From the NCBI RefSeq assembly GCF_000426605.1, contig NZ_AUFR01000011.1, positions 1-64,000 of the forward strand: 64,000 bases of DNA, given 5' to 3'. The translations under genes and the position numbers were made by a program. The notes below the pieces were generated by a model. The model made no database searches and had not been told where the DNA came from. It was given only the letters and a program-made list of their open reading frames with translations. How positions within the stretch are numbered: position 1 is the stretch's first letter; each line of letters starts with the position of its first letter. This document shows positions 27,964 to 51,823 of the stretch, one piece after another. The DNA is from Propionibacterium acidifaciens DSM 21887 (GTDB taxonomy: Bacteria > Actinomycetota > Actinomycetes > Propionibacteriales > Propionibacteriaceae).

Positions 27964-28611
27964 CTACAGCCAGCCCTGGGAGCGGGCCGTCTCGATGGCC
28001 TGGATACGGCTCGTCGCGTCGAGCTTGGTCATCACGGCCGACAGGTAGTTGCGCACCGTCCCCTGCGAGAGGCACAGCTGCTTCGCGACCTCGGAGGTGG
28101 ACGACCCGTCCGCGATGAGGCGCAGGACCTCCAGCTCGCGCTCGCTGAGCGGGCAGGGGCCGACGCGCAGGGCCTCGGCGGCCAGGTCCGGGTCGATCGC
28201 GGTGTGGTCGCCCATCACCGCCCTGATCGAGCTCATGAGGCGCGCGCCGGTGGTGGTCTTGAGCAGATAGCCGTTGGCGCCGGCCTGGATCGCGGCGTGG
28301 AGGTGGCCGCTGCCCTGGAGCGCGGTGAGGAGGAGGATCCTGCCCCGGTAGCCCTTCCCGCGCAGCTGCGCGGTGGCCTCGATACCGGTCGCGCCGGGCA
28401 TGTCGACGTCCATGAGGACGAGGTCGGGGCGGTGCACCGCGACGGCCCGCAGGACGAGATCGCCGCGGCTGACGCGGGCCACCACCTCGAAGGACGGCTC
28501 GGTGCTCAGGAGGGCCTCGAAGGCCTCGGCGACGAGGTCGACGTCCTCGGCGAGGAGGATGCGCAATCTGCTCCTCTCGTCGGAGGGCGGGTGGGGGGTG
28601 ACTGTGCTCAT
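27964..28611 (-). CDS. LuxR-family response regulator of the biosynthetic cluster
   Basis: This 215-residue protein has a receiver domain (ILLAEDVDLVAEAFEALL, phospho-Asp in LVLMDVDMPGATG, Lys in GYLLKTTTG) and a LuxR HTH (LSERELEVLRLIADGSSTSE, QGTVRNYLSAVMTKL). It follows its kinase by 19 nt. An in-frame TTG at 28647 would overlap the kinase stop, but the ATG at 28611 is the conventional choice. DesR/LiaR-type regulators of this class often activate adjacent ABC exporters. The TGACA-type sites in front of both exporters and the precursor are candidate targets (inference). Confidence 0.9.
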   Translation of the reverse strand: MSTVTPHPPSDERSRLRILLAEDVDLVAEAFEALLSTEPSFEVVARVSRGDLVLRAVAVHRPDLVLMDVDMPGATGIEATAQLRGKGYRGRILLLTALQGSGHLHAAIQAGANGYLLKTTTGARLMSSIRAVMGDHTAIDPDLAAEALRVGPCPLSERELEVLRLIADGSSTSEVAKQLCLSQGTVRNYLSAVMTKLDATSRIQAIETARSQGWL

Positions 28612-28630
28612 GGCAGCATTGTGCCGCGGC

Positions 28631-29773
28631 TCATTCTGCTCCGACAAGGGGGATCACGGCACGGAGACGGAACCTGCCGCCCTCCACCGGACCCGCCTCG
28701 AGACTCCCCCCGAGAAGAACGACCCTCTGACGCATCCGCCCCACACCACTGCCGTCCCCACCCACCGGCCGACCGTCCAGGACACCATCATTGACCACCG
28801 ACACGACAGCACAACCGCCCTCGATCCCCACCTCGACCCGGCACGACGAGGCATCGGCATGCTTGAGCATGTTCGTGACCCCCTCACGAACCACCAGAGC
28901 GCACTCGGCATCTGCACCACCCACCGGCACCGCACTCGCCTCGAACCGAACACCGATCCGCTCACACAACGCCCGCGCCGACCCGAGCTCCTCCTCGACC
29001 CCCGCCACCATCGGCCCATGCGTAAGAGCCCGCAACTGAGCCTGACCCTCACGAACCGTCTCCCCCGACGCCACCAACTGCCGCCGCGCCAACCCGACAT
29101 CCCGATCCAACAGATTGAGAGCAGCCTCCTGACGCAACGACACCGCCACCAGAGTCCGCCCAATGATGTCATGCAGATCACGAGAGATCCGCGACCGCTC
29201 CTCATCAACGCTGAGCCGAGCCAACCGCTCCCTGGAAACCTCCAACTGGATGAGGGTCCGGGCCAGCAGAGCAAAGGTCAACAGGACGATGCCGACAACG
29301 ATGTTGAGGCAGACCAGCACGAGCTTCCCAGCGATCGTGTAGGGCCGGATGCACAACAGTGCCACCTCGACGAGGATGACAATCGTGATCATCACCATGC
29401 GGTGACGCTGCGACGACACGAGGAGCAGGAGGGCGACCACCACGACGGCATCGAAGAAGGCGGCCGAGACGAGGCCCTCCGTGATGAGGATCGCGATGAT
29501 GAAGACCGTCGACGCGATCGACCACGAACGGTCGACGCGATCGACGATGACTGACTTCTGGATGGCGGGGTAGCACAGCATCAGCCCGGTCACGGCGACC
29601 AGGTAGATGACGGTCGCCACTCTGCCCGCGGTCGGGGTGACCTCGTAGGAGGTCACCCCGACGAGGGCGCCGCGACAGCAGGCCACGTAGCACAGGAAGA
29701 CGACGAGAAGAGCCGTTCGCTGCACCTGACGGGGAGTGATGAGGTCCAGGAAGGATCTGAATTGTCTCGACAC
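28631..29773 (-). CDS. HisKA_3 sensor histidine kinase of the biosynthetic cluster
   Basis: This 380-residue membrane kinase has five to six hydrophobic segments in residues 15-160, a short helical linker (RLARLSVDEERSRI), the phosphoacceptor box SRISRDLHDIIGRTLVAV (His around residue 200) and a C-terminal ATPase domain (REGVTNMLKHADASS, NDGVL). The start is a GTG preceded by CTGGAG at good spacing. It has no extracytoplasmic domain, like kinases that sense membrane-active peptides. It lies at the 3' end of the cluster with its regulator and may sense the product or the state of the membrane. Confidence 0.88.
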   Translation of the reverse strand: MSRQFRSFLDLITPRQVQRTALLVVFLCYVACCRGALVGVTSYEVTPTAGRVATVIYLVAVTGLMLCYPAIQKSVIVDRVDRSWSIASTVFIIAILITEGLVSAAFFDAVVVVALLLLVSSQRHRMVMITIVILVEVALLCIRPYTIAGKLVLVCLNIVVGIVLLTFALLARTLIQLEVSRERLARLSVDEERSRISRDLHDIIGRTLVAVSLRQEAALNLLDRDVGLARRQLVASGETVREGQAQLRALTHGPMVAGVEEELGSARALCERIGVRFEASAVPVGGADAECALVVREGVTNMLKHADASSCRVEVGIEGGCAVVSVVNDGVLDGRPVGGDGSGVGRMRQRVVLLGGSLEAGPVEGGRFRLRAVIPLVGAE

Positions 29774-29776
29774 GTC

Positions 29777-29935: not shown

Positions 29936-30005
29936 CCCACTCTCATCTCATTCCTTCGGGGTCAGGATTTTTCCAGTGACGCTTGAGTTTTGCACAACCT
30001 CCGGT

Positions 30006-30101
30006 TCACCAATGACAGAAGACAGACCAGCTCATGATGACTGGGGAGTCGATCAGCTCGTCCTCCTGGGTGGCAAGAGCATGAAGATCGGTGAGGTTCA
30101 T
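30006..30101 (-). CDS. Candidate class III lanthipeptide precursor, 31 residues
   Basis: This short ORF lies 101 nt downstream of lanKC on the same strand. The product reads MNLTDLHALATQEDELID then SPVIMSWSVFCHW. The first 18 residues form an amphipathic, acidic segment as expected of a leader. The last 13 contain three Ser and one Cys (S-x4-S-x-S-x2-C), suitable for dehydration by LanKC and thioether formation. About 70% of codons end in G or C although the surrounding gap is A/T-richer, which supports coding. The ribosome binding site is weak (CGGAC, 7 nt before the ATG). A TGACACTCATCA element lies about 93 nt upstream. No other better precursor was found near the synthetase. Expression and modification are untested. 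Confidence 0.45.
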   Translation of the reverse strand: MNLTDLHALATQEDELIDSPVIMSWSVFCHW

Positions 30102-30193
30102 AGCATTGTCCGTTCATGTAGTGGTTTCCGTTGTGATTCCATTCTCTTCGGCGCGAAGGCTCCGAACCAGTCACCATGATCACCGACTCGGGA

Positions 30194-30205
30194 TGATGAG
30201 TGTCA
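30194..30205 (-). promoter_or_regulatory. Candidate operator upstream of the precursor ORF
   Basis: On the minus strand TGACACTCATCA overlaps the lanKC stop codon and lies about 93 nt upstream of the precursor ATG. It differs by one base from TGACATTCATCA upstream of the first ABC exporter. A small CTTCG-GCG-CGAAG hairpin at 30146-30158 lies between it and the ORF. Confidence 0.35.
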
Positions 30206-32638
30206 TGCCAGTGCCAACGCATCGCTCACCACGGCCCATGGGTCGGGGGCCAGTGCCAGCGCCACGCCAGCGCTTCCTGAGGCGAGGTCAAGTCCGGCTC
30301 GGGCACCCGCCCGGCCGAGGACGACCGTGCGGGGCGCCCCGCTTCCGTCCGTGACCCGAGTGCATCCCCAGCGCAGCCGCCGAGCGTGTTCTGCCGACAC
30401 CCGGTCACCAGGGGCCAGAGCTCTCAACGCCATAAGAAGACCGGCCCGGCCCCGTATCAGGCCTGCTTCGAGCACGTGAGGGCTGCGGCAGCTCGCCCCG
30501 GCCGCGGCGATGAGAGAGAGCACGGCATCGTCGTCGCCAAATGAGCCGGGAGGCAGCATCCGGGCGAGGAGGGCCGCCGCGAGCCCCCCATGACCGAGGT
30601 ACGGCATGCGTCTGCTGCCGCTGACCGCAGTGAGAACCCGTCCGTCCATGGACAGCCGTCCCCTCTCGAGTCGGAGCGCAGCCGCCGCCTGTCCAACTGA
30701 CGGGCCATCGCTCCTCAATGGGAGCAGAGCCAGACCCACCCCCGCCCAGCCGTGGAGAAGACCGGCCCGTCCCGGCATCCCGCTCTCAAGAGCCTCGCAC
30801 GTCAGTCGCCGCTGCTGCCCGGCCATGCGGGTGAAGTCGGCGCGTTCGAGGGCCGCGCCCGCCTTGTCGAGCACGGCGGCGATCCCGGCCGTCCCGTTGG
30901 CCCACCAGGGGCAATCGGCGTCGGGCAGTCCGCGCGCGATGCAGCGTTCGAGGAGTTGCTCCGCCTCGTCCGGGCGCCCCATCCTGAGCAGGGCCCAGGC
31001 CATCCCCTCAGCCCCATCGGCCACGCCCCGGGGAAGCACCTGAAGGGCGCGGATCTGCTCGCACAGGATGTCCAGGAGCGGTTGGTCCACCGTTTCGCCC
31101 AGCAGGTGAAGCGAGAGCAGCACGCCGGCGCTGCCGTGGAGCAGTCCCAGCCCCGCACCGGGACGTTGGAACTGGACGGGATCGCCGGGGAAGAGACGCT
31201 CGGGTCGGGACGGGTCGGCGAAAGCCTTGATCCCCTCGACCAGCTCCTCGACCCGCAGCGGTTCGGTTCTCGTCGACGTCGGCAGTGGCGCGCCATCGCC
31301 GCGCAGCTCCTGCGAACCGACGCGCAGCATCTCGGTCTGCACCGGTCCGGACTGGTCCGCCGAGATGAGCGCGGGCACCTCGAGAACCGCCATGATCCTG
31401 CGCCGGGCCGATTCGTCCGCATGGTCGTCAGGTGCATCACGGGCCCGGGAGAACTGGGGATGGTGGAGTCCGGCCGAGGGGCCCGCGCCGTCAATCGTGC
31501 ACGACTCGAAGTCGATCGCGACCAGACCGTCCGGCCCATCCATGAGATTGCCGGGGTGGAGGTCACCGTGGACGATCCCCATCCGGTTCATCGTGGCGAC
31601 CAGTTCGTCCAGTCTTCCGCTCACGCCGTCCAGCCACTCCAGGTATCCCGTCCGGTCGGCATTCGGAACGGCCGATGGATGCCTCGTCTTCAGCACCGTG
31701 GCGAGCGAGGCGCCCGGCACGAGGCCCATGACCAGGAACTCACTGCTGCCGACCCGGAGATGGTCGAGGGGCTCGGGTGCGACGCCGGTGCCGGCGAGCC
31801 TGCGCAGGGCCTTCCACTCGTGCCGCAGTCTGATGCCCGCGGGTTGCTCCTCGAGGTCGAGGCCGCAGTGGTCGCGGGCCTCCTTGAGCACGACCCGTCG
31901 TCCGTGCCACTGGGCCGAGTAGACGCCCCCTGCGTTGGAGCGGTGGAGCAGGCGGACCTGCGAGATCTCCAGATGCTCGTCCTCCGGGCTCGTGGCCTCC
32001 ACGCGGGCCATGAGGGCCGCTGGCAGGCCGGGCGCCGAGTGCTGCTCGATGCCGCGCCGGTCCTCGACCACTGCGCCGTCGACCCTCACGCCAGGACGCG
32101 GCGTACCGGCGGTGTCGAGCAGCCATTCGGCCTGGAACGCCCCGTGGCGGAGGCTCACCGGCGACCCGGCCAGGTGCGGCTCGCCTTGGACCGGTGGGTG
32201 CGGCAGACACGGCAGCTCATCGGCGAGCCGCAGGGCCAGGGCCTCGAGTCGCCCAGCGGCCGGGTAGCACGTGAAGACCTTCCCCGACTGGACAGGATCG
32301 GCGTACTTGAGCTGGCTCGCCAGGACGAGTTCTCGCGTGCGGAGCATCTTGTGGGCGACGCCCTGCTCGCGACAGATCCGGGCGGCGGCCCCGACGACGG
32401 CGGCGGCATCCCGTGGCAGGGCCGAGACATGGATCTTCCACCCCTGTCGCGGCAGCGGCTCGGCTGGGGCGAGCGGCGCCCAGGTCGACCAGGGGCCGGC
32501 ATCACGACCGACCCATCCGGGGATGGGACCCTCCGGCCGGATGGGGGTCCGCAGGAAGGGCGATCCGGGGGCCCACGCCACCTCGAAGAAGGGGCTGCGC
32601 CACAGCATGTAGGGCGAGACCCGGTCCATTTCCGTCAT
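30203..32638 (-). CDS. lanKC: Class III lanthipeptide synthetase (LanKC)
   Basis: This 811-residue trifunctional enzyme phosphorylates, eliminates and cyclises Ser/Thr in a precursor peptide. Residues 1-200 are the lyase domain, with the family text LPRQGWKIHVSALP and LKYADPVQSGKVFTCYP. Residues 230-400 are the kinase domain: Lys252 in VVLKEA, catalytic loop HGDLHPGN at 357-364, and metal Asp in IDFES. From about 480 to the end is a LanC-like cyclase with GLLHGSAGVLLSL-type repeats. It lacks the Cys-His zinc ligands of true LanC, as usual for class III. No clear ribosome binding site precedes the ATG. It ends a long chain of overlapping genes, and the candidate precursor lies just downstream. 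The start could be the Met at residue 4. Confidence 0.88.
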   Translation of the reverse strand: MTEMDRVSPYMLWRSPFFEVAWAPGSPFLRTPIRPEGPIPGWVGRDAGPWSTWAPLAPAEPLPRQGWKIHVSALPRDAAAVVGAAARICREQGVAHKMLRTRELVLASQLKYADPVQSGKVFTCYPAAGRLEALALRLADELPCLPHPPVQGEPHLAGSPVSLRHGAFQAEWLLDTAGTPRPGVRVDGAVVEDRRGIEQHSAPGLPAALMARVEATSPEDEHLEISQVRLLHRSNAGGVYSAQWHGRRVVLKEARDHCGLDLEEQPAGIRLRHEWKALRRLAGTGVAPEPLDHLRVGSSEFLVMGLVPGASLATVLKTRHPSAVPNADRTGYLEWLDGVSGRLDELVATMNRMGIVHGDLHPGNLMDGPDGLVAIDFESCTIDGAGPSAGLHHPQFSRARDAPDDHADESARRRIMAVLEVPALISADQSGPVQTEMLRVGSQELRGDGAPLPTSTRTEPLRVEELVEGIKAFADPSRPERLFPGDPVQFQRPGAGLGLLHGSAGVLLSLHLLGETVDQPLLDILCEQIRALQVLPRGVADGAEGMAWALLRMGRPDEAEQLLERCIARGLPDADCPWWANGTAGIAAVLDKAGAALERADFTRMAGQQRRLTCEALESGMPGRAGLLHGWAGVGLALLPLRSDGPSVGQAAAALRLERGRLSMDGRVLTAVSGSRRMPYLGHGGLAAALLARMLPPGSFGDDDAVLSLIAAAGASCRSPHVLEAGLIRGRAGLLMALRALAPGDRVSAEHARRLRWGCTRVTDGSGAPRTVVLGRAGARAGLDLASGSAGVALALAPDPWAVVSDALALA

Positions 32639-32705
32639 GAGAAGGAGTTTAGATACTCGTGCCGGGTCGGTTCAGCGTATCAGCATGCGGTCCCGGCCCT
32701 GCCCC

Positions 32706-33875
32706 TCACGCCGCCGCCTCTCCGTCCTGAACGGCGTCGACGATCGTCTGCAAGAAGCCCGTGGCCCGCTGCCGGCTGTCGCTGCTGCGGTGGCCCAGGG
32801 TCAGGGAGGTCCGTCCGTTCACCGAGAAGGAACTGATGAACATCGCCGCGTACGGGACGAGCATCGGCAGGGTGAAGACCGCCTCGGGCCGCCACTCGGG
32901 CAGGGCGTACCGATGATCGGCGTCGATCCGGCCGTGGTCGGAGACGATGGCGGTGCACGGGAAGAGCCCGTCCCGGCCGGCCGAGCGGGCCTGCTCGAGG
33001 GAACGGGCCATCGGGTTGGATGCGACGAACCGGGCCATGATGGCCCGCAGCTCGTCCCCGTTCGCCATGGCCCGCAGGATCCTCCCCTGCACCTCCCGCC
33101 AGCCTCTCCCGGGGCGGGCCTCCATGTAGAGGGGGGCGCTCAGGTTGGCGGTGGAATCGATGGTGGGGTCGTGCCGGCGCAGGTCGACGGGGACCAGGAC
33201 GCGCGCGCCGGGGCACACGTCCCCCAGCCGGCTGATGATCCTGGCCGTCATGAAGGGGAAGTCGCCGTCCAGCCGGACGTGGGACCACCGGGGAAGATCC
33301 GCGTCATCCCGCCCGGCGCCCAGCGGTGAGGGCTGAGGCGAGCCGGGGCTCGCCCACGGGGCATCGGGGGCCGGGCGCCGTCGTGCCTTGGAGAGGAAGT
33401 ACTGGTCGGTGACGGTCGACGTGGAGCCGGCCGGCTCCTCCCCGCGCAGGGCCCGGAAGAGATCATCCGTCCAGCGTTCGATGCCGCGTCCGTCGGCCAC
33501 GGCGTGGCTGACCCGGATGACGAGCCGGTCCACGTGGCCGTCGCTGATGAGTCCGACACTCGCCACCGGACCGTGGACGAGATCGAGAGGGGTGTGAAGG
33601 AAGGGATGATCGGTCCACTCCTCACCGGCCCCTGTCGTATGCACCTCGAGGGCGGGCGGCTCGCCCGTACCGAGCCAGAGCTTCCCCTTCCTCGCGACGG
33701 ACAGGCCGGGGTTGGCCCGGCTCGTCACGACGATGGCACGTTCCAATTCCTGAGGGTCGAGCCGCCCGCGACCCTCGATGACGAAGCTGATGATGGGATT
33801 GTCCCCCTGGGTCGCGGCATTCAGGTAACCGCGTTCGATCGATGTGATGCGGCGCGAGTACTGCGCGGCGGTCAT
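32706..33875 (-). CDS. Condensation-domain-like acyltransferase
   Basis: This 389-residue protein has the catalytic motif HAVADGRG (HxxxDG) near residue 125 and a C-terminal block typical of the alcohol/wax-ester/PapA-type acyltransferases (YAAMFISSFSVNGRTSLTLG). The start at 33875 has GAAGGG nine nucleotides upstream; an ATG at 33884 overlaps the phosphopantetheinyl transferase stop. Such enzymes move an acyl group from a carrier protein or CoA to a hydroxyl or amine. Here it is a candidate for loading or releasing the polyketide chain, perhaps onto the peptide or a diaminopropionate. The acceptor is unknown. Confidence 0.7.
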   Translation of the reverse strand: MTAAQYSRRITSIERGYLNAATQGDNPIISFVIEGRGRLDPQELERAIVVTSRANPGLSVARKGKLWLGTGEPPALEVHTTGAGEEWTDHPFLHTPLDLVHGPVASVGLISDGHVDRLVIRVSHAVADGRGIERWTDDLFRALRGEEPAGSTSTVTDQYFLSKARRRPAPDAPWASPGSPQPSPLGAGRDDADLPRWSHVRLDGDFPFMTARIISRLGDVCPGARVLVPVDLRRHDPTIDSTANLSAPLYMEARPGRGWREVQGRILRAMANGDELRAIMARFVASNPMARSLEQARSAGRDGLFPCTAIVSDHGRIDADHRYALPEWRPEAVFTLPMLVPYAAMFISSFSVNGRTSLTLGHRSSDSRQRATGFLQTIVDAVQDGEAAA

Positions 33876-33880
33876 GTTCT

Positions 33881-34516
33881 TCATCCCTTCGGTTGGATGC
33901 GGGTACGAACGGGCGATGCGAGGCGCCCCCCGCGAGAGGAGCGGGAGACCCACCACCGGATCGTTGCAGGCCGGGTGGCCGCGACGGCGATGGCTCCCGC
34001 CCCACTGCAGTCGCTGCTCCACAGCCATGTCGAGTCGTCGAGTCGTCGCCATCCGGGCCGCCAACGGGGCAGCCTCACCTGCGAGAAGGTCTCCTTCGTG
34101 AGCCGGGTCGCCTTGATGATGGCCTCGGACTCGGCGAACTGCCGAATGCTCGCAGGCGCACCATCGGGCTCATGGACGAGCCCGCCCAGCCATGCGAGAG
34201 CCCCCGGCCGGTTCCGGTGATCCTGGACATCCACGCCGATGGGGCCCCCGGCGCACAGGGCGGTGAGACTCCACGCACCGCAGTGGGACAGGGACCCGTT
34301 CAGTCCATCGTCCCAGCGCCACCGCTTGTGCTCATCGCGAGCGGGGACGTCGTGACGCCCGGCCAGCAGGCGGGCCGCCTGCGTCAGCAGATGACGCCCG
34401 CCCGGGGGGATCCTCTCCCCGCGGGGCCCTCGAGGCAGGCCTTCGTGGCGGATGAGCAGGCACTCGATCGTCGGGGCGCAGCGCAGGGGGTCATGGGTCG
34501 TCGCGGTGCCGCTCAT
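33881..34516 (-). CDS. Sfp-type 4'-phosphopantetheinyl transferase
   Basis: This 211-residue protein has the two core motifs of the Sfp family: GPIGVDVQDHRN (metal-binding Asp) and FAESEAIIKATRLT (the F/W-x3-E-A-x2-KA block). They are preceded by SLSHCGAWSLTAL. It activates carrier proteins by attaching phosphopantetheine from CoA. Two carrier-protein genes lie in the cluster (40578 and 47374), so a dedicated enzyme makes sense. The ATG at 34516 overlaps the stop of the KS-CLF gene (ATGA). Confidence 0.82.
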   Translation of the reverse strand: MSGTATTHDPLRCAPTIECLLIRHEGLPRGPRGERIPPGGRHLLTQAARLLAGRHDVPARDEHKRWRWDDGLNGSLSHCGAWSLTALCAGGPIGVDVQDHRNRPGALAWLGGLVHEPDGAPASIRQFAESEAIIKATRLTKETFSQVRLPRWRPGWRRLDDSTWLWSSDCSGAGAIAVAATRPATIRWWVSRSSRGGRLASPVRTRIQPKG

Positions 34517-40010: not shown

Positions 40011-40053
40011 GGTGGATCCGTTTCGTGATGATGGGTTGCGGGCGTGAATTCTT

Positions 40054-40953: not shown

Positions 40954-41718
40954 TCAGCCGTTGATCATCCCGCCGTCGATCGTCAGCACCTTGCCGGTGA
41001 CGTAGGAGGCCAGCGGACTGGCCAGGAAGACGATGGCGTTGGCGACCTCCTCAGGCTGACCGAGTCGCCCCAGGGGGATCAGCCGCTCGGCCTGTTCCAC
41101 GACCCTCCTGGGCGTCCTCCGGACCATGTCCGTGGCGATGAACCCTGGAGCCACGCAGTTGACCCGGATACCGCGACCGGCCGTCTCCTGGCAGACGCTC
41201 TTCGCCATGGCGATGATCCCGCCCTTGCTGGCCGCGTAGTTCGCCTGCCCGGGACGTCCCGCCACGCCACTCGTCGAGCTCGTGAGGACGATCGACCCTC
41301 CGGCCGAGTACATGGCCCTCACGGTCTCCCGGAGGCAGCAGAACGTTCCGGTCAGGTTGGTGCCGATGGCCTGGTCCCACTTGGCGAGACTCATGCCCGC
41401 CGCATGTCCGTCGGCGGTGACGCCGGAGTTGAGGACCGCGGTGTCGAGTCGGCCGAACTGCTCGCGGATCGTCCGGAACAGCGCGATGACCTGCGTCTCA
41501 TCGGTGACGTCCGCGCGAACGGTCAGGCACTCACGACCGAGTTCCCGAACGCGCACCGCCGTCTTCTCCGCCTTGTCCGCCTTGGCGCGGTAGGCGACGA
41601 CGACACGACATCCGGCCTGCGCCAGGGCGAGTGCCGCCGCCGCACCGATCCCGCGGGAACCGCCGGTGACGAGGGCGACCGCTCCGTCGGGGAAAACGCC
41701 TGTGAGGCCTCTCATCAT
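40954..41718 (-). CDS. FabG-like 3-oxoacyl-ACP reductase (SDR)
   Basis: This 254-residue short-chain dehydrogenase has cofactor motif TGGSRGIGAA, NSG in place of NAG, and catalytic Ser-Tyr-Lys in LTSSTSG and NYAASKGG. NADPH-dependent reduction of 3-oxoacyl-ACP is expected. It follows a strong ribosome binding site (GGAGGAGCGG), and its ATG overlaps the sbnB stop (ATGA). No enoyl reductase is present anywhere in the cluster. Confidence 0.88.
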   Translation of the reverse strand: MMRGLTGVFPDGAVALVTGGSRGIGAAAALALAQAGCRVVVAYRAKADKAEKTAVRVRELGRECLTVRADVTDETQVIALFRTIREQFGRLDTAVLNSGVTADGHAAGMSLAKWDQAIGTNLTGTFCCLRETVRAMYSAGGSIVLTSSTSGVAGRPGQANYAASKGGIIAMAKSVCQETAGRGIRVNCVAPGFIATDMVRRTPRRVVEQAERLIPLGRLGQPEEVANAIVFLASPLASYVTGKVLTIDGGMING

Positions 41719-43828: not shown

Positions 43829-46191
43829 GACTCCTCCTTCACTGGGATTGCGGATGGGTTCACGGGGCCTCGCGTCATCTGGAAGCGGAGCTCGCTCACG
43901 TAGTGCTGGCCGGAGTCGTCGCACAGCCAGTTGTCCTCGGGAAGCGGCAGGCACTCGGATATCACGGCAGTGGCACCGAGCTCCTTCGCCCTGCGTGCCA
44001 TGCGCACGAGATTCGCCGTGAGAACAGGGCTGGTGAAATCCACGTGGATCGGTTTCGTCTCGTGCGAGAACTTGGCGAACACGCGCGTGGGCAGACCGTT
44101 CGAGGTGCGCCATTCCTGGACCCGCACGAAATCCATGGCGGGGTCCCCGCGGCCGGGCGGGATGAGCTCCTCCGGGGTTGGGGTCCACGCCTCCCGGAAC
44201 AGGACCAGGTCGTCGATGGACAGTCTGGGCGTGTGCTCACCCGGCAGACCGATCTTGAACGCGTCCGCGCACAGGATCGAGAGGGGAACGCCCCAGATCT
44301 CCCGCAGGGTGAGGACCCGACCGGAAGGCATGGTACCGACGATTCCCGCCGGCGTGTCCGTCAGGAGGATGCGCGAGGCCGGGACGACCCTTTCGGGATC
44401 GGCCGCGACGGCATTGGTGAACCCGATGCCGGTCTCGCCGGTTCCGATGCGCGCCGGCTTGACCCGGCCGGTGTTGCGCCGCCAACCGCTGGGGAACAGG
44501 GGCACGGTTCGGCTGGTGCCCAGGGCCCGGTTGATCGTGTCCCTGACGACCGGAGTCACAGCGGTTCCGGCGCTGCTCTCGACGGCCGGCATCTCCAGGG
44601 TCGCCAGACAGGCATGCAGCTCGCCCAGAACGACCTGGTAGTCACCGGCCTCGACGTTCTCGGCCGAGCGGGCGACGATCTGCAGATCGGGGCTGTGCAC
44701 CGACATCGCGGGGACCGGCGCCTCCGTCCGGGGGAAGCACTCGTGGACCGCCCCACGAATGCGACGGCTCTCGAGGCGGATCCGAGTCGCACTCGCGCCG
44801 GGCTCGCCGAGGATGCCCGCCCAACGGCGGGACAGCTCCTCCTCGACGGTCCTGAGAGGGTTGTCCTCGGTCTCGCCCCACAGCAGCTCGAGGGAATGGT
44901 CCCAGACGTCGGCGACCGTTCCCGCTCCACCGCCCGTCGAGACGATGAACTCAGTCATCGACCTCTCGAAGGCGAGGCAGAGCCTCTCGCCGAACCACTC
45001 GGCGGAACGCAGGACCAGGTCCAGTGGCTCGGCAATGCGGGTCAGCAGAGATTCGCCGACGGACGCCGCGCAGGGCCTCGTCGCGTCCATGTAGACCGTG
45101 GTGCGGGCCGCGTAGGCCTTTCCCTCGGAACGATACGAGGGCCCGTGTGCGATGGATTCGTAATACTCGTCGAACTCCGTCAGTCGCTCGCGGAGTTCCC
45201 GATGGTCGGCGGCGTTCCCCAGCTCTTGGAGCCGGGCCATGATGCCGTCGAGGACACCGCTGAAGCGGCGACGCAGTCCTTCGTCACCGATGCGCTCCAC
45301 GCGCTTCATCAGGAGAGGGAGCGCCGCCGGACTGACCGGGATGGCGGCGTCCCATGTGAGGAACCTCCTGTGGACGTACTTCACCAGGGTCTTCTCCACC
45401 CGGGCCCTGCTCCACGCGGAGGCGTCGGGGCCACCGGCGAGCTCGGCAAGGATGTCGGATCCATTCCGCGATCCATCGACGAGACGCAGGACGCGCATGT
45501 CCTGAGCGGGTACGTGCGGATTCACGTGGCCCGGGCGGACGAGCTCGCCGAGCTCCTCGTCGAGGCCCTGATCCGGTCGTACTCGTGGCGGGAACCACCA
45601 GCGACCCCCCGATTCGGAGAACACGGTTCCGAGGCGTTGCACGGCCCATGCCTCCATGCAGACCCACAGGTCCTCGACGGATTCAGCCGACGGGGTGAAC
45701 CCGAGCGCCACGCCCGGAGTACCGACGGGGATCCACGCGAAGGGGCCGAAGAAGCCGATCGTCTCCGCCTTGCTGCAGTAACGCTGCCAGTAGAGAGCCG
45801 CGGCCTCCTCCCTCCGGCGCCGTCGCGAGGACAGCCGCTCGGCCTCCGTGGACAGCTCGTGCATTCCATGGGAGAGGACGTTCCGGTTCTGCCAGGTCAA
45901 GGCGGACAGGAAATCCTCCCGGCGGAGGAGACCTGTGATCCTGGTGGACAGACGGAGCCGCTCCCCGGCGAACGCATCACGGTACTCGGTCTCGTCGATG
46001 ATGCCGTCCATGTACCGCTGAGCGGCCGTGCAGAGCTCGGGACACGAGAGGAGGTCGAGTCCTTCGACCGGGAAGCCGGCGCTCCGCAGGACACCCGCAC
46101 CGAACGCCCTCCAATCGGAGTCCCCGACCGGAACGAGATCCTTGATCCTGGAAATCGTTCTGCGATTCCTCGTGATCGTCGGGGTCGTCAT
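43825..46191 (-). CDS. LanB-like (Lant_dehydr_N) protein without the elimination domain
   Basis: This 788-residue protein resembles the N-terminal glutamylation domain of class I lanthipeptide dehydratases. Family-like blocks are ALYWQRYCSKAETIGFFGPF, the long helical middle, LSIDDLVLFREAWTP, and a C-terminal KPIHVDFTSPVLTANLVRMA with SELRFQMT. The SpaB_C elimination domain is absent. Stand-alone LanB proteins of this size use aminoacyl-tRNA either to glutamylate peptides or, in PEARL systems, to add an amino acid to a peptide C-terminus. Next to the sbnA/sbnB genes it could attach or tailor diaminopropionate. The start overlaps the aminotransferase stop (ATGA), and the downstream gene overlaps it likewise. 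Confidence 0.75.
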   Translation of the reverse strand: MTTPTITRNRRTISRIKDLVPVGDSDWRAFGAGVLRSAGFPVEGLDLLSCPELCTAAQRYMDGIIDETEYRDAFAGERLRLSTRITGLLRREDFLSALTWQNRNVLSHGMHELSTEAERLSSRRRRREEAAALYWQRYCSKAETIGFFGPFAWIPVGTPGVALGFTPSAESVEDLWVCMEAWAVQRLGTVFSESGGRWWFPPRVRPDQGLDEELGELVRPGHVNPHVPAQDMRVLRLVDGSRNGSDILAELAGGPDASAWSRARVEKTLVKYVHRRFLTWDAAIPVSPAALPLLMKRVERIGDEGLRRRFSGVLDGIMARLQELGNAADHRELRERLTEFDEYYESIAHGPSYRSEGKAYAARTTVYMDATRPCAASVGESLLTRIAEPLDLVLRSAEWFGERLCLAFERSMTEFIVSTGGGAGTVADVWDHSLELLWGETEDNPLRTVEEELSRRWAGILGEPGASATRIRLESRRIRGAVHECFPRTEAPVPAMSVHSPDLQIVARSAENVEAGDYQVVLGELHACLATLEMPAVESSAGTAVTPVVRDTINRALGTSRTVPLFPSGWRRNTGRVKPARIGTGETGIGFTNAVAADPERVVPASRILLTDTPAGIVGTMPSGRVLTLREIWGVPLSILCADAFKIGLPGEHTPRLSIDDLVLFREAWTPTPEELIPPGRGDPAMDFVRVQEWRTSNGLPTRVFAKFSHETKPIHVDFTSPVLTANLVRMARRAKELGATAVISECLPLPEDNWLCDDSGQHYVSELRFQMTRGPVNPSAIPVKEES

Positions 46192-47384
46192 GCCGCGCCC
46201 TCCTGAACGGTCCCTGCCCCGGAGATGACCGCGCAGAGGCGATCGGCGGCGACGTGCAGTTCGCTCTCGCTCGCGCCGCTGAACGACAGCCGCAGGCCGG
46301 CCCTGGCCGCTCCGGTACCGCCGAACCGCGCTCCGGGGACGAGAGCGATCCCGGCCCGCCGCGCCGCCTCAGCGAGTCCGGAGGCGTCGACTCCGGTCGC
46401 GTCGGTGAGCCAGAGGTAGAAGCCCCCGTCAGGTTCGCGCCAGCTCCAACGATCGCGGTCGAGCCCGGAGGCGACCAGCGCCTCCGACAGGGTCATGGCC
46501 TTCCCCGCGTAGATCTCGCGGAACCGTGCAATGGCACGGTCCCAGCCGCATCTGCGGTGATGGCCGGCGATGATCGCCTGCGCGATCGGCGAGGGCGACA
46601 GGGTCGCCGTCTCGACCGCGCCACGGATCCTCTCGTGGTACTGGGCGGCCGGATCGATCCAGCCGCACCGCAGGCCGGGAACGAAGACCTTCGAGAAGGT
46701 CCCCAGATAGGTGACGCCGGCGGGGCTCATGGATTTCAGTGCGGGTAGCTCACGGCCCGTGAATGAGAGCATCCCGTAGGGATTGTCCTCGATCACGTGC
46801 ACGTCGAGCGCCTCGCAGGCCTCGAGGAGCCTCTGCCGCCGGCCCGTGCCCTGGGTGCGCCCGGTCGGGTTGTGGAAGGTTGGCACCGTGTACAGCACGT
46901 CGAGCCGGCCCCCAGACGCTCGAACACGCGTGACGGTCTCGACGAGGGCCTCTGGGACGAGGCCCTCCTCATCCATGGGCACTGGGGCGACGCGGGCTCC
47001 GCACCAGGCGAAAGCGCTGAGGGCACCGGGGTAGGTGAGCTCTTCTGTCGCGATGTACTCCCCGTCGGCCACGAGCGCCCGGCACACGGCGACCAGGCCG
47101 AGTTGACTGCCGCTGGTGGGGACGAGGTTCGAGGCGAGGGGGTGCATCGATTCCCGGCCGGCCAGGTCCTCGATCGCCTCGACGAGGTCGCTCGGCGTCT
47201 CCATGGTCGAGTACTGGAGGATGGTGGGCCCGCCCAGGCGGATCTGGCGGCCGACCTGCTCCGAGAGTCCCCTCATCTCGATGGGGCTCAGATCGGGCAC
47301 CCCGCCGGCCAGCGAGATGCCTCCGGACGGCACGTCGAAGAGGTGCGCTGCTCCTGCGGTCATGGCGATGCGCTCATTCCGCAT
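46188..47384 (-). CDS. PLP-dependent aminotransferase (MocR/2-aminoadipate type)
   Basis: This 398-residue fold-type I aminotransferase has ISLAGGVPDLSP at the N-terminus, TSGSQLGL, PTFHNPTGRTQ, IEDNPYGML and the PLP lysine in LGTFSKVFVPGLRCGW. There is no N-terminal GntR domain, so it is an enzyme rather than a MocR regulator. It may make an amino acid starter or install a terminal amine. It overlaps the carrier-protein gene by 11 nt. An internal Met at 47363 is an alternative start. Confidence 0.82.
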   Translation of the reverse strand: MRNERIAMTAGAAHLFDVPSGGISLAGGVPDLSPIEMRGLSEQVGRQIRLGGPTILQYSTMETPSDLVEAIEDLAGRESMHPLASNLVPTSGSQLGLVAVCRALVADGEYIATEELTYPGALSAFAWCGARVAPVPMDEEGLVPEALVETVTRVRASGGRLDVLYTVPTFHNPTGRTQGTGRRQRLLEACEALDVHVIEDNPYGMLSFTGRELPALKSMSPAGVTYLGTFSKVFVPGLRCGWIDPAAQYHERIRGAVETATLSPSPIAQAIIAGHHRRCGWDRAIARFREIYAGKAMTLSEALVASGLDRDRWSWREPDGGFYLWLTDATGVDASGLAEAARRAGIALVPGARFGGTGAARAGLRLSFSGASESELHVAADRLCAVISGAGTVQEGAA

Positions 47385-47613
47385 GAGTCGTGACCGCGCT
47401 CTCGGCGTAGGCATGCATCTCCGCCGGGGTCCGGGGCAGCCCATCGGCGAACGACGCGGGGTCGATCTCGATGGAGTAGCTGTCCTCGACAGCCACGAGG
47501 ACGTTCAGGAGACCGAGCGAGTCGAGTCCCTGGGCCGTGAAACTGGTCTGGGGGTCATCGAGCTCGACTCGCGCTGCGGTCGAGATGACTGCGGTGAATT
47601 CTTCGATGGTCAT
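47374..47613 (-). CDS. Acyl/peptidyl carrier protein 2
   Basis: This 79-residue carrier protein has the site QGLDSLGLLNVLVAVEDSY. Its start at 47613 follows AAGGAG. It lies immediately downstream of the AMP ligase, so it is likely the carrier loaded by that ligase, distinct from ACP 1 at 40578. Phosphopantetheine would be added by the PPTase at 33881. Confidence 0.87.
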   Translation of the reverse strand: MTIEEFTAVISTAARVELDDPQTSFTAQGLDSLGLLNVLVAVEDSYSIEIDPASFADGLPRTPAEMHAYAESAVTTHAE

Positions 47614-47644
47614 GTTCTGCTCCTTGTTCCGGTTGAGGCGACGC

Positions 47645-49117
47645 TCAGGAGACGGTGCCGAGGCAGAGGTTCTCCAGCTGACGTCGATCGGGTTTCGCGT
47701 TGTGCGTGAGGGGGATGGAGTCCATGCGGATGATCCGGTCGGGGGCCCTCGCCTGATCGAGGAACTCCTCGAGAGTGATGCCGAGGGAGTCGGGATCGGC
47801 CGGACCCGTGAAGCAGAGGGTGAGGCTCTCGGAGGGCCCGGACGGGTGGAGGGCGACGGCAGCATCCACCCCTTCGACCCGCTCGGCCGCGGATTCGATC
47901 TCGTTGAGCGAGATTCGAATGCCATGGCGTTTGACGATGTCGTCGTTGCGGCCCATGAAGAACAACCTGCCGGTGTCGTCCAGGCGACCTCGATCGCCGG
48001 TGTGCAACTCGACCGATCCGTCCGGAGCCCGGCGATAGCGGTCCTGAGCCTCCATGGGGACACCCCAGTAGCCACTCATCACGGTGCGGCCGCGGACGAC
48101 GATCTCACCGGGATGACCCGTCCCGACCGGTTCGCCGTTCTCGTCGAGGATGAGGATCTCGTCCCCCGGGATGGCTCGTCCCACGGATTCGGGATGAGCC
48201 CGCCATTCGTTGGTGGGCAGGATCGAAATCCTCTTGCACTCGGTCATGCCGTACATGGAGGCGTACTGCACCCGGGGGAAACGCTCCAGGAACTCCTCCA
48301 TGAGCGCGGGCGCCATCCGGGCGCCGGTGTTCGTCACGAGGCGCAGCACCGTGCCGACAGGACGGTGCCGGTGCAGGGCGATGAGCATGCGGGCCAGCGA
48401 TGGAACCAGCGGAACGACCGTGACGCCCCGCTCCACGATGATGCGCAGCAGGCGAACGTCCTCGGCGGCACTGACGATGACGACCTCGGCCCCGCAGTCA
48501 GCGGCGAGAAGGAGCTGGTAGAGGCCGTAGTCGAAGGCGAGCGGAAGACGACAGGCGATGACGTCGTCGCTGCGGTAGCCGAGACAGGAACCGATCGACT
48601 CGACTGCTGCACGCACCTGACGATGGGGGCAGACGACCCCTTTGGGATTCCCGGTCGTGCCCGAGGTGTAGATCAGCAGGGCCGGAGCGTTCTCCGAGGT
48701 CGTTGCACGACGGGGGCGGGGCGTGGCACTGACGCGAGGAAGATCGGCGAGGTCGATGACCCGTCGGCCTCCGGCGAGGGGGGCACCGGCCGGACCGTCG
48801 GCGACGACGACTCGCGCATCGCAGTCGTTGACGACGTGGTCGACCTGCATTCTCGTGAGACCCGGGTGCAGCGGGACGAACACGGCACCGAGTTCCAGCA
48901 CCGCCCACATGAGGACGACGGTTCGGACGCACGGCCCGGCGAGAGCGACGACGCGGTCACCAGGGCGGACACCGAGATCGGTGAGCTCATCGGCCGTTGC
49001 GGCGACCCTCGCCCCCAGTTCCGACCAGCGGAGCCGTTCCGTGCGATCGCTCACGGCGGGCCTGTCGGGGCGGTTCCTCACGGAGTTCCAGAGGAGTTCT
49101 TGGACGACCATGATCAT
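47645..49117 (-). CDS. AMP-dependent acyl/aminoacyl ligase (ANL family)
   Basis: This 490-residue adenylating enzyme has A3 motif LLIYTSGTTGNPKG, A5 MYGMTECKR, A7 HTGDRGRLDDTGRLFFMGR, A8 KRHGIRISLNEIE and the A10 lysine in NAKPDRRQL. It should activate a carboxylic acid as AMP ester and transfer it to carrier protein 2, located 31 nt downstream. Candidate substrates are a fatty or amino acid starter, perhaps diaminopropionate; the binding-pocket residues were not decoded. The start overlaps the acyltransferase stop (ATGA). Confidence 0.87.
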   Translation of the reverse strand: MIMVVQELLWNSVRNRPDRPAVSDRTERLRWSELGARVAATADELTDLGVRPGDRVVALAGPCVRTVVLMWAVLELGAVFVPLHPGLTRMQVDHVVNDCDARVVVADGPAGAPLAGGRRVIDLADLPRVSATPRPRRATTSENAPALLIYTSGTTGNPKGVVCPHRQVRAAVESIGSCLGYRSDDVIACRLPLAFDYGLYQLLLAADCGAEVVIVSAAEDVRLLRIIVERGVTVVPLVPSLARMLIALHRHRPVGTVLRLVTNTGARMAPALMEEFLERFPRVQYASMYGMTECKRISILPTNEWRAHPESVGRAIPGDEILILDENGEPVGTGHPGEIVVRGRTVMSGYWGVPMEAQDRYRRAPDGSVELHTGDRGRLDDTGRLFFMGRNDDIVKRHGIRISLNEIESAAERVEGVDAAVALHPSGPSESLTLCFTGPADPDSLGITLEEFLDQARAPDRIIRMDSIPLTHNAKPDRRQLENLCLGTVS

Positions 49118-50004
49118 GCCTTCCGGGTGAGATCTCGAGGGGTGGTGACGCACATGACCGATGACGAGGGGAGCCGACGGCGGGCCAGGCCGCTCAGCGT
49201 CCTGCCGGGAGGAGCGGCCACGATCATCCCCGGGTCGAGCGACTCGATCGTGTCCATGCACAGGTCCCAGCGCACGGGAGCGGTGATCTGACGCACCAGA
49301 CGATCGCGGAGCTCGTCCCCGTCACGGATGACTCGACCATCCAGGTTCTGGATGATCGGAATGGGGGCTGCACGGAAGGGGACTTCGTCTGCCGCCAGGC
49401 CGAAGGCCTCGAGTGCGGGCCTCATGAACGGGGTGTGGAAGGCTCCCGCCACCGCCAGACGCTTCACCGCGCAGCCCTCCGGAGGTGCACTGGTCAGTCG
49501 TTCGATGGCTTTCAGCGATCCGGCCGCAACCACCTGCCCCGTGCCATTGCGATTGGCCACGGATGCACCGGCCGCCCCGATGGCATCGGCGACGACCGCG
49601 GGGTCGCCCCCCAGGACGGCCGCCATCGTCGTCTCCGCCGCCCTGCAGGCCTCGGCCATGGCCAACCCGCGGAGACGGGCCAACCGCACGGCCTCGCCCG
49701 GCTCCAGCACACCGGCCATCGCCGCGGCAGACAGTTCGCCGACGGAGTGACCGGCCACCGCGATGCTCCGGCCGGTCACCTCGGTCATGATGAGAAGGGC
49801 TTGGGCGACGAGCAGCGGTTGGGCATTCTCCGTGCGGGAGATCTCGGCCATCGAGCCCTCCGTGCCGAGCGCTGCCAGATCGATCCCCGCCCGGAGGGAC
49901 CACTCGCGCAACCGTGCGGAGGCGGCCGGCTCCCTGATCCAGGGCGTCAGCATTCGGGGCCGTTGGGCCCCCTGCCCTGGGCAGATGACGATCGCGGTGG
50001 TCAT
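49114..50004 (-). CDS. Malonyl-CoA:ACP transacylase (FabD-like)
   Basis: This 296-residue acyltransferase has IVICPGQGAQ at the N-terminus, the active Ser in AVAGHSVGELSAAAMAG and the catalytic His in GAFHTPFM. It loads malonyl units onto ACP for chain extension. The Met at 50004 has GGAGG 10 nt upstream; an ATG at 50010 gives two more residues. It provides the extender-unit step for the KS-CLF. Confidence 0.87.
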   Translation of the reverse strand: MTTAIVICPGQGAQRPRMLTPWIREPAASARLREWSLRAGIDLAALGTEGSMAEISRTENAQPLLVAQALLIMTEVTGRSIAVAGHSVGELSAAAMAGVLEPGEAVRLARLRGLAMAEACRAAETTMAAVLGGDPAVVADAIGAAGASVANRNGTGQVVAAGSLKAIERLTSAPPEGCAVKRLAVAGAFHTPFMRPALEAFGLAADEVPFRAAPIPIIQNLDGRVIRDGDELRDRLVRQITAPVRWDLCMDTIESLDPGMIVAAPPGRTLSGLARRRLPSSSVMCVTTPRDLTRKA

Positions 50005-50041
50005 TTCCATCCTTCCTCCCCCGTGGTTCGTGCAGGACCGC

Positions 50042-50878
50042 TCACGCGCGGCCCGAACTCTTCGTGTAGGCGCGTGCGGCGAGCAGCACGAACAGGACGA
50101 ACCAGCCGCCGACGTCGAGGAGCACGAAGGTCAACGAGGAGTGGACACCGGACAGGGAGCAGCCATCGGTGAGGGCACGACGAGCGATGTCGGACACCCC
50201 GAACATCGGAGTCCAGCGGCCGACTTGGAGCACCCTGCCCGACAGGGGGAGGAAGAGGTTGCCGATGAAGGCGAGTGCAGTCGTCGTGAGACCGGGGATC
50301 GACGTGACGATCTCGGCGCGCAGGGTCAACCCGATACCGAGCCCGAATGCGGCGAAGACCGCTGAACCGCCCCATGCGGTGAGCAGACCGAGAATCCAGA
50401 CCCGCAGATTCCCCTCGGCGCCGGTCCCCCAGCCGAGAAGACCGACGACAACGACGGGCAGCACGGCCGAGAGCATGGCGGAAGCCACTTTGGACAGGAC
50501 ATATCCGACCGATGAGATCGGCATGAGACGCATGGTGCGCATCCAGCCCGAAGACTTCTCAATGGCGATTCCCACTGCGGTCGACGTGGAGGCCGTGGCC
50601 GATCCGTACACCGCAATGCCGATCATCATCCACATGGCGAAATTTCCGTGCGGGGGAGCGGTGTGCGAGCTGCCGGTCCGGTGGAGCGCGAGATAGAGGA
50701 CTGCGGGAAGCGCCACATTGATGAGCAGGGCCTGCCTGTTGAAGGGCCGCTTCAACTCGTGGCCCAAGTAGGTGAGGCTGAGGCCACCGGCCGGCCTCGC
50801 GGAGACGGGGGCGAATGTCTTGACAGCCCGGGCCGGAGCGTGATCGGCGAGAACAGGTGCAGTGGTGAGCAGGGACAT
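50042..50878 (-). CDS. ABC-2 type exporter permease of the cluster
   Basis: This 278-residue membrane protein has six hydrophobic segments and closely parallels the permease at 25986-26816 (NFAMWMMIGIAVYGSATAST, TALAFIGNLFLPLSGRVLQV). It works with the ATPase immediately upstream (9 nt). Export of, or immunity to, the cluster product is the likely job. Confidence 0.88.
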   Translation of the reverse strand: MSLLTTAPVLADHAPARAVKTFAPVSARPAGGLSLTYLGHELKRPFNRQALLINVALPAVLYLALHRTGSSHTAPPHGNFAMWMMIGIAVYGSATASTSTAVGIAIEKSSGWMRTMRLMPISSVGYVLSKVASAMLSAVLPVVVVGLLGWGTGAEGNLRVWILGLLTAWGGSAVFAAFGLGIGLTLRAEIVTSIPGLTTTALAFIGNLFLPLSGRVLQVGRWTPMFGVSDIARRALTDGCSLSGVHSSLTFVLLDVGGWFVLFVLLAARAYTKSSGRA

Positions 50879-50887
50879 GATGGTCTC

Positions 50888-51823
50888 TCAGTTCTTGCGG
50901 GTGAGGGTGAGGAAGGCGTCCTCGAGGCTCTGCGGGAGAACTTCGATGTCGGTGGCTCCGACTCGTACGAGATCGCCCACGAGGGCGTCGGAGTCGGTGC
51001 TGTGCAGATAGGTGCGGCCCGCGGACCGTTTGACGATGCTGACCCCCGGGTCATCGAGGACCGTCCGCGCGGCGTCAGCCGGCAGGACGCAGGAGGCGAT
51101 GCGGCCCGAACTCGCGGCTCGGATGTTGTCCGCCGTGTCATCGGCGATGATCCGACCGTCCTGGATGAGGATGACCCGGTCCGCGAACTGGTCCGCCTCC
51201 TCGATGTAGTGGGTGGCGAAGACAACCGTGCGGCCACGGTCCGCGTCCTCGTGGACGCGCTCCCAGAAGGTCCTCCGGGCCTCCACGTCCATGGCGGCGG
51301 TGGGTTCGTCGAGGATCATCAGCTCAGGATTCGGGATGAGGGCCATCCCGAAGCGGACGCGCTGGATCTCCCCGCCCGAGCACGTGGAGATCTTCCGGTC
51401 CGCCAGCTCGTTGATGTTGGCCCGCGCCATGCACCTGTCGACCTCGGCTTCGCGGAACAGGCCTCCGACCATGTGCATCAGGTCGCGCACGGTGAGGTCC
51501 GGGAGCATGCCTCCGGACTGCATGACGGCGGAGACCAGTCCTGCATGGGCGGCAGTGATCGGGTCGAGTCCGAAGATGCGTGCGCTTCCGGAATCCGGCC
51601 CGAGCAGTCCCAGGGCCAGGTCGATCGTCGTGGATTTTCCAGCGCCGTTGGGGCCGAGAAAGGCGACGACCTCGCCCCGGTCGATGGTGAACGAGACGTC
51701 ATCGACGGCGGTGATGGTTCCTCCGCTCGGGGCCCGGAACGTCTTCGTGAGGGATTCGAGACGGATCGCTGCATTCGGATCATGCTCACGAGATGTCAAC
51801 GGGTCATTCAGGTACTGGGCCAT
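50888..51823 (-). CDS. ABC-2 type exporter ATPase of the cluster
   Basis: This 311-residue ATPase has Walker A GPNGAGKST, signature CSGGEIQR, Walker B LMILDEPTAAMD and H-loop ATHYIEEADQF. It shares the unusual Cys in the signature and the SAGRTYLHSTDSDAL segment with the ATPase at 25064-25984, showing the two systems are paralogues. It is the first gene of the long minus-strand operon; GAAAGGATCC precedes the ATG at 51823. A TGACA-type palindrome lies 132 nt upstream. Confidence 0.9.
   Translation of the reverse strand: MAQYLNDPLTSREHDPNAAIRLESLTKTFRAPSGGTITAVDDVSFTIDRGEVVAFLGPNGAGKSTTIDLALGLLGPDSGSARIFGLDPITAAHAGLVSAVMQSGGMLPDLTVRDLMHMVGGLFREAEVDRCMARANINELADRKISTCSGGEIQRVRFGMALIPNPELMILDEPTAAMDVEARRTFWERVHEDADRGRTVVFATHYIEEADQFADRVILIQDGRIIADDTADNIRAASSGRIASCVLPADAARTVLDDPGVSIVKRSAGRTYLHSTDSDALVGDLVRVGATDIEVLPQSLEDAFLTLTRKN

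Follow-up and report, generated by a model that had tools for sequence, protein, structure and literature searches.

The first 64,000 nucleotides of contig NZ_AUFR01000011.1 of Propionibacterium acidifaciens DSM 21887 (GCF_000426605.1, a 3.04-Mb draft assembly of 85 contigs), hereafter the window, carry on the minus strand, between positions 27964 and 51823, a gene cluster in which lanKC, encoding a class III lanthipeptide synthetase, lies beside a set of type II polyketide synthase (PKS) genes. The question addressed here is how the lanthipeptide part and the polyketide part of this cluster relate to each other. Pfam and NCBIfam scans count 19 genes, with the ketosynthase (KS) and chain length factor (CLF) taken as two, plus a sensor kinase gene and a response regulator gene, and seven of the 21 gene junctions are 4-bp overlaps. 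An earlier, sequence-only reading of this DNA had named the same 19 genes and two-component system, and its family calls agree with the profile matches, those of the phosphopantetheinyl transferase (PPTase) and of the condensation-like protein being made on weak matches. Its "many" ATGA overlaps amount to those seven junctions; it overlooked the precursor gene lanA and treated KS and CLF as separate genes, which in the relatives they are not (see below).

The downstream part of the cluster, which we call module B, consists of lanKC, lanA, a kinase gene and a regulator gene. LanKC (30203-32638) matches RamC_N (E 1.5e-34) and, weakly, kinase-fold and LANC_like models; its best NCBIfam model is the class III model NF038151, at 441 bits below the cut-off of 575. 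With RamC_N, kinase and LanC-like regions in a single protein, it has the domain make-up of a class III lanthipeptide synthetase. A second LanKC-like gene stands elsewhere in the same genome (C7:97797-100199). Between lanKC and the kinase gene, a reading frame of 31 codons (30006-30101) encodes MNLTDLHALATQEDELIDSPVIMSWSVFCHW, which we take as the LanA precursor from its position and from a leader pattern common to eight loci. The sensor histidine kinase (28631-29773; HisKA_3, PF07730) has four to six hydrophobic segments by hydropathy, the last three overlapping, and the NarL/LuxR-type response regulator (27964-28611; PF00072 and PF00196) is 61-63% identical to its counterparts in Cutibacterium porci and Rhodococcus. 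A genome scan places a perfect TGACA-NN-TGTCA palindrome at 51955-51966, 131 bp upstream of the putative polyketide operon, and a sequence scan finds an operator-like palindrome with two mismatches, weak taken alone, upstream of lanA (30193-30206). An Rfam scan of positions 27500-52400 returned nothing at gathering cut-offs.

The upstream part, module A, opens with an ABC exporter, composed of a drrA-like ATPase encoded by the first gene of the polyketide operon (50888-51823; PF00005) and an ABC-2 type permease (50042-50878; PF12698). There follow a FabD-type malonyl transferase (MAT; 49114-50010; PF00698), a VinN-like stand-alone adenylation enzyme (47645-49117; PF00501), carrier protein 1 (47374-47613; PF00550), a pyridoxal phosphate (PLP) enzyme of the class I/II aminotransferase family, MppQ-like and under the MppQ cut-off (46188-47363; PF00155), a LanB-like protein (43825-46191; PF04738), the SbnA-type and SbnB-type diaminopropionate synthesis enzymes (42740-43828 and 41715-42743), a FabG-like ketoreductase (KR; 40954-41718; PF13561), carrier protein 2 (40578-40874; PF00550) and a FabZ-like dehydratase (DH; 40054-40581; PF07977, with NF000582 above cut-off). 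Further downstream lie a GNAT domain fused to a ~540-aa beta-rich region without assigned function (37938-40010; PF00583), whose low-confidence model (pLDDT 61) has, among the matches listed, fold matches over the GNAT part only, a GcvT-like folate-binding protein (36820-37833; PF01571; nearest solved structure the aminomethyltransferase 1YX2), the N-terminal KS half with the active-site Cys (36041-36814; PF00109), the C-terminal KS half with the His, fused to CLF (34513-36174; PF02801 and PF00109), an Sfp/EntD-like PPTase (33881-34522; no Pfam match, a weak EntD match at E 3.9e-05) and a condensation/PapA-like protein (32706-33884; no Pfam match, weak PapA5 and C-domain matches) with an HxxxDG motif whose H and D are invariant in the six sequences compared. 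Genes for a PIG-L deacetylase and a GT4 glycosyltransferase, upstream of the operon on the same strand (52377-54518), are apparently unrelated.

Relatives of the cluster were collected with a LanB profile. A species-level collection gave four loci. The host family, which is Propionibacteriaceae and not the Actinomycetaceae in which the sequence-only reading proposed to compare neighbourhoods, gave matches in 6 of 198 genomes, three of them strong, including the window's (the three weak ones were left out of the comparison). At the class level 12 of 394 genomes matched at E 1e-30; eight besides the window's and G479 were inspected, G297 and G444 being left out, and G499 alone among those eight carries module A. 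Within Rhodococcus, the genus of G258, 4 of 37 genomes matched at 1e-100, and within the genus of G499, 6 of 343 at 1e-230. The resulting 15 module A clusters fall in seven genera: the window, Cutibacterium porci (G069, NZ_VUMG01000001.1), G070, Flexivirga meconopsidis, Labedaea rhizosphaerae, four Rhodococcus and six members of G499's genus. Across these genomes the order of the ABC exporter, MAT, VinN-like ligase, carrier protein, aminotransferase, LanB-like, SbnA/SbnB, KR, DH, GNAT fusion, GcvT-like, KS-CLF, PPTase and condensation-like genes hardly changes. The exceptions are SbnA/SbnB, which stand at another place in G070 and Flexivirga, the ABC genes, for which the Flexivirga cluster gave no recognisable match, and carrier protein 1, which tblastn failed to pick up in 4 of 14 clusters. 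C. porci repeats the window's gene order at 35-73% protein identity, and the co-location is therefore not a matter of chance. In G800, of G499's genus, module A is cut off by the contig end, which leaves 14 of the 15 clusters with readable downstream DNA.

All 13 other clusters that cover the gene in full have KS and CLF fused into one, in a single frame of 769-1060 codons from stop to stop; in Flexivirga the CLF motif check was negative, yet both tblastn matches fall inside one 768-aa open reading frame (ORF). In the window the frame is interrupted within the KS part, where the Cys half and the half bearing His and CLF overlap (36041-36174), and this may be a true lesion or an assembly error. 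If it is a lesion that silences the pathway, module A would be defunct in this genome and module B its sole live part, which is compatible with the other readings discussed here and which we regard as doubtful, though worth keeping in mind. Such a loss would suit both the interruption of a frame unbroken in all 13 comparable clusters and the MFS transporter gene, which follows the condensation-like gene in 13 of 14 module A clusters and was not found in the window, the one exception. Against it, the remaining module A genes have open frames, and a sequencing error is possible since the assembly is a draft in 85 contigs.

Apart from this break, the KS-CLF, KR, DH and acyl carrier protein (ACP) set of a highly reducing type II PKS is complete in module A. 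The diaminopropionate cassette named by the sequence-only reading is borne out: SbnA scores 371.8 against a cut-off of 349.95 (TIGR03945) and SbnB 336.4 against 326.9 (TIGR03944), and eight of nine proteins from five relatives pass as well, the exception being a Rhodococcus SbnB (324.2 against 326.9). For the adenylation enzyme, the nearest solved structure is VinN (3WVN, 494 bits). The substrate pocket of VinN is formed by D230, F231, S299, K330 and R331 (PMC11253843, from the part of the text available), and alignment to 3WVN places D196, Y197, T264, K295 and R296 of the window protein at these positions; the equivalents of D230 and R331 are kept in 14 of 14 clusters and that of K330 in 13 (Gln in G918). 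The substrate may be an aspartate-like acid, as the pocket residues suggest, or diaminopropionate, as the gene content suggests. A VinK-like function of the acyltransferase was considered and rejected, its closest solved structures being FabD-type MATs.

The LanB-like protein matches the N-terminal tRNA-dependent domain alone in Pfam. TbtB and GodF are the solved structures to which its profile comes nearest, and the 11 fold matches of its low-confidence model (pLDDT 60) at E <= 0.001 are all LanB-family proteins, among them TbtB, MibB, NisB, MadB and GodF. The elimination domain PF14028 has no match in the window genome and is absent from five of the six genomes tested; the sixth has two copies, on a contig other than the cluster's. 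SnaE forms an amide in a nonribosomal peptide synthetase (NRPS)-PKS cluster, and PEARLs do not co-occur with PF14028, according to the accessible portion of PMC11212132. As a LanB fold without a PF14028 partner, the window's protein is more readily understood as an amide-bond enzyme of the PEARL type than as a dehydratase, and a tRNA-dependent activity is predicted. A part in the lanthipeptide pathway was rejected in view of the missing elimination domain and by the presence of the protein in clusters that lack LanKC. LanB-like proteins found with the same profile in G400, G547, G497, G520, G465, G458 and G313 lie beside adenylation matches, several also beside KS or acyltransferase matches, and are likely further PEARLs of SnaE type.

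Put together, the VinN-like ligase would load an amino acid onto a carrier protein, and the fused KS-CLF with KR, DH and malonyl transferase would extend it into a chain, probably a polyene. The PEARL-like LanB, the GNAT and condensation-like proteins, the PLP enzyme and diaminopropionate made by SbnA/SbnB would then, in one order or another, decorate or release this chain.

Module B adjoins module A in 6 of the 14 readable clusters (the window, C. porci and the four Rhodococcus); since the four Rhodococcus clusters are close kin, these six hybrids represent about three independent lineages. The other eight have no LanKC beside module A, each having been read 5.3-17.2 kb past the MFS gene, and some of their genomes carry LanKC genes elsewhere. 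In G070, the place of LanKC (L071 13048-18456) is taken by a small secreted-peptide-like ORF, a kinase gene, a transposase-like gene and a regulator gene, possibly another peptide-sensor pair or a decayed one. Module B, for its part, occurs without a module A LanB match in two genomes, G537 and G044 (79% complete, on a 5.8-kb contig). In a tree of 31 LanKC sequences, which includes a partial one from G044 and one from Rhodococcus, the five lineages of module B separate from the 26 others (ultrafast bootstrap, UFBoot, 99) and the three hybrid lineages group at 93. A tree of 11 module A proteins pairs C. porci with the LanKC-free G070 (100), so that LanKC was probably gained or lost more than once. 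Kinship of the cluster with ordinary class III loci was also considered and dropped, stretches of ~17-40 kb around full-length LanKC genes in 10 other genomes having given only LanKC, ABC, regulator and kinase matches.

The cluster is accordingly conserved, as the sequence-only reading had it, with lanKC and the KS-CLF set together in six clusters of three genera. Its proposal of a single acylated, possibly diaminopropionate-containing lanthipeptide is not supported: module A is complete without an adjoining LanKC in 8 of 14 clusters, and is predicted to make a product without module B, and module B has its two lone occurrences. The outcome that this reading had named as speaking against itself, two separately conserved clusters, is largely what we found, the modules being separable, yet they do co-occur.

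The precursors of the eight module B loci are 31-36 aa long (that of C. porci read from a GTG inside a longer ATG frame). All eight share the leader pattern M-x-(I/L/V)-x-x-(L/M)-(H/Q)-x-L, a leader of class III type in short precursors, and seven have the core S/T-x2-S-x4/5-C, five of the eight with Ser first; the motif of class III precursor cores is S-x2-S-x3-5-C. Note that the LanA pattern, which has one match among 598 start-to-stop readings, was built to fit the five precursors then known, the window's included. In the Rhodococcus precursors a nearly fixed leader is followed by the cores SAVSVNGWCL, SGVSVNGWCV, SGVSVNGWCH and SSYSTMGICP, which vary around a constant S-x2-S-x4-C. In the window, the Cys is not C-terminal, being followed by His-Trp, and no LanD-type gene was recognised among the cluster genes, a genome-wide search not having been made; avionin, which arises from a decarboxylated Cys at the C-terminus and is the defining feature of lipolanthines, therefore looks impossible here.

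These observations bear on the idea of an acylated lanthipeptide, in which the GNAT or the condensation-like protein would attach a polyketide chain, possibly one with diaminopropionate, to the mature LanA core, so that the clusters with LanKC would make a lipolanthine-like hybrid. We consider this quite unlikely. The expected lack of avionin speaks against it, as do the lone module Bs and the eight clusters without adjoining LanKC that nevertheless have the GNAT and condensation-like genes, and acylation leaves unexplained the joint divergence of core and sensor described below. It would suit the adjacency of LanKC and the operon in three genera, the grouping of their LanKCs and the lack of a separate LanA exporter recognised among the cluster genes. 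It also has a precedent in the goadvionins, whose halves are reportedly joined by an acyltransferase of the GNAT class, and a parallel in the different LanKC-type I PKS-LanB locus of G479. That locus (L145-L147, ~15.6-47.5 kb of the joined stretch), distinct from the hybrids above, combines LanKC and two short precursor-like ORFs with type I PKS-like genes, a condensation-like protein and a distant LanB-like protein, in a lipolanthine-like layout; lipolanthine PKSs are of type I.

The palindrome TGACA-NN-TGTCA lies, with at most one mismatch, upstream of the first ABC gene of module A in six of six hybrids and upstream of lanA in seven of eight loci (five of six hybrids and both lone modules), the window with its two mismatches being the eighth. 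In both lone modules it also precedes an ABC gene, again within one mismatch. Seven LanKC-free clusters have a recognised ABC gene, and none of them comes closer to the palindrome than 3-4 mismatches in the 480 bp scanned; Flexivirga has no palindrome within one mismatch in 55 kb. Dinucleotide shuffles of the upstream regions of five lineages reached one mismatch in 0.3-3.3%, with palindrome-to-ABC distances measured from the tblastn match start. The perfect copy at the polyketide operon is the only one in the 3.04-Mb window genome. A probable operator is thus found at the module A promoter only where module B is present, which argues for pheromone control of module A. A perfect palindrome further precedes an ABC-ABC-kinase-regulator operon in Rhodococcus G634 (C43 ~290.7-294.2 kb) and G258 (C56 ~249-252.6 kb), with a regulator 43% identical, and a palindrome also stands before the matching ABC pair in G647 and G658. 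Because this paralogous operon carries the palindrome too, the data suggest that the regulator family is the likely binder of TGACA-NN-TGTCA. Cross-talk between this operon and module B is possible.

The Rhodococcus clusters differ among themselves in a localized manner. Between G647 and G634, the median nucleotide identity over the 26-kb cluster is 97.6%. The LanA leader is 95-100% identical, but identity drops sharply at the core codons, and 60-bp windows from there through the intergenic region and the kinase sensor give 23-83%; in the kinase domain the values are again 92-100%, apart from 87-88% in four later windows. At the protein level, the N-terminal half of the kinase is 57% identical and its C-terminal half 95%, with 99% for the regulator and 93-98% for the other genes compared (stop-to-stop frames, whose ends include some non-coding codons; the KS N-terminal half left out). 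Where G634 is not involved (three pairings), the cores are similar and the sensors 83-84% identical. A milder identity dip, to 80%, lies within lanKC (G647 26352-26601, joined coordinates). The LanA core and the kinase sensor thus appear to have diverged together, in one event, as in pherotype switching, and this is the strongest divergence inside the cluster.

Palindrome and core/sensor divergence both point to signalling, and we consider it rather probable that the lanthipeptide is a pheromone controlling the polyketide operon and not an acylated product. LanKC would cyclise the short LanA peptide, and once exported this product would be detected by the membrane kinase encoded beside it. Activated by the kinase, the NarL-type regulator would bind TGACA-NN-TGTCA in front of lanA and of the ABC-led operon of module A, so that the lanthipeptide would induce itself and turn on polyketide production. 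We also lean, with somewhat less confidence, towards the broader view that LanKC, LanA, kinase and regulator form a lanthipeptide version of ComQXPA, a private quorum-sensing system with exchangeable pherotypes, recruited in Propionibacteriaceae and Rhodococcus to switch on an undescribed type II polyketide pathway that is primed with an amino acid and contains a PEARL.

Alternatively, module B might make an independent class III lanthipeptide, an antibiotic or a morphogen, with its own regulator, adjacency then meaning the co-inheritance of two products under shared regulation. In G537 and G044 module B does stand by itself beside ABC transporters, a NarL-type regulator (RamR) is a frequent member of class III clusters, kinases adjoin eight other class III loci, and the sensor could respond to the antibiotic itself. 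Set against these are the palindromes, which tie lanA to the polyketide operon, the very short precursor and the joint divergence of core and sensor, and we hold a separate product to be unlikely.

Several points weigh against the pheromone reading. The kinases beside other class III loci count here too, as do the kinase-regulator pairs near the MFS gene in the LanKC-free G808 and G979. The window core, SWSVFCHW, is S-x-S-x2-C without the spacing of its relatives, so that any ring type is conjectural, and neither a LanA protease nor a separate exporter was recognised among the cluster genes. The change of core and sensor is one event, separating G634 from the three other Rhodococcus (three of six pairings). 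G647 and G658, too, share 21-35% identity in the intergenic part of the dip, and identity falls to a lesser degree in lanKC (80-93%) and, before the ABC gene, in the 470 bp at the start of the comparison (40% and 87%). The palindrome was spotted by eye before scanning, the paralogous Rhodococcus system carries it as well, and the ABC gene that it precedes in G537 is ~8 kb past the regulator. With the two mismatches of the window's lanA site allowed, the 14-bp form would be expected 0.75 times in the window and is present 3 times, a level that 4 of 100 shuffles attain. One-mismatch sites also occur off these promoters in the window (inside KS), in C. porci (two) and, one each, in G658, G647, G634, G537 and the LanKC-free G499. 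Perfect copies number 0-5 in each of 16 genomes, and a reversed control occurs equally often in Rhodococcus (2-3 per genome) and outnumbers them in Labedaea (16 against 5); hence the palindrome is evidence by its position, not its number. Finally, a self-inducing antibiotic would fit the data too, and the support is computational throughout.

If the pheromone reading is right, class III lanthipeptides, whose roles are mostly unknown, would gain a ComX-like signalling job, and from the change of pherotype one could predict which strains respond to each other's signal. It is often difficult to activate silent polyketide clusters, and with the lanthipeptide as natural inducer a defined peptide could turn on this cluster and its relatives. 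Module A, with its fused KS-CLF, VinN-like priming, PEARL-like LanB and diaminopropionate genes, would define a new biosynthetic family. The matches listed in a search of the open-access literature, with most subscription journals outside its scope, include no description of the cluster or of a class III lanthipeptide pheromone.

In ComQXPA of Bacillus, paired variation of peptide and receptor marks pherotypes. The prepeptide is the most variable component and the regulator the least (PMC4008528, from the portion available). Module B has the same order on one strand, with modifying enzyme, prepeptide, HisKA_3 kinase and response regulator; its modifier is LanKC and not the ComQ isoprenyl transferase, and its proposed target is a polyketide operon, so that the two would be alike in working, module B not being a member and no sequence kinship being claimed. 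With class III lanthipeptide systems of the RamC/LanKC type, module B shares the RamC_N, kinase and LanC-like regions and a short precursor, and differs in its precursors of 31-36 aa, its adjacent kinase and regulator and its separate LanKC lineage. The lipolanthines microvionin and nocavionin, the goadvionins and the nocavioguas likewise have a class III synthetase beside acyl-chain genes (PMC10435860, as far as the accessible text goes), whereas the window has no expected avionin, a type II PKS and no support for conjugation.

On the side of module A, SnaE and other PEARLs of NRPS/PKS clusters resemble the window's protein in being stand-alone LanB-like proteins in a PKS setting without a PF14028 partner (PMC11212132, in part); the PKS is here of type II, and the comparison is one of fold and gene content, not of PEARL-specific residues. 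VinN, the starter ligase of vicenistatin, shares the Asp for the beta-amine and the Lys/Arg loop positions (PMC11253843 and PMC10662134, both in part), but the window ligase would feed a type II and not a modular PKS, and neither a glutamate mutase nor a VinO-like decarboxylase was recognised in the cluster. Highly reducing type II PKSs and the cispentacin pair AmcF-AmcG offer the closest counterparts of the KS, CLF-like partner, KR, DH and ACP, with a moderate score to AmcF, under its cut-off (PMC10698177, in part), from which module A differs in joining KS and CLF in one gene and in adding MAT, SbnA/SbnB and PEARL-like genes.

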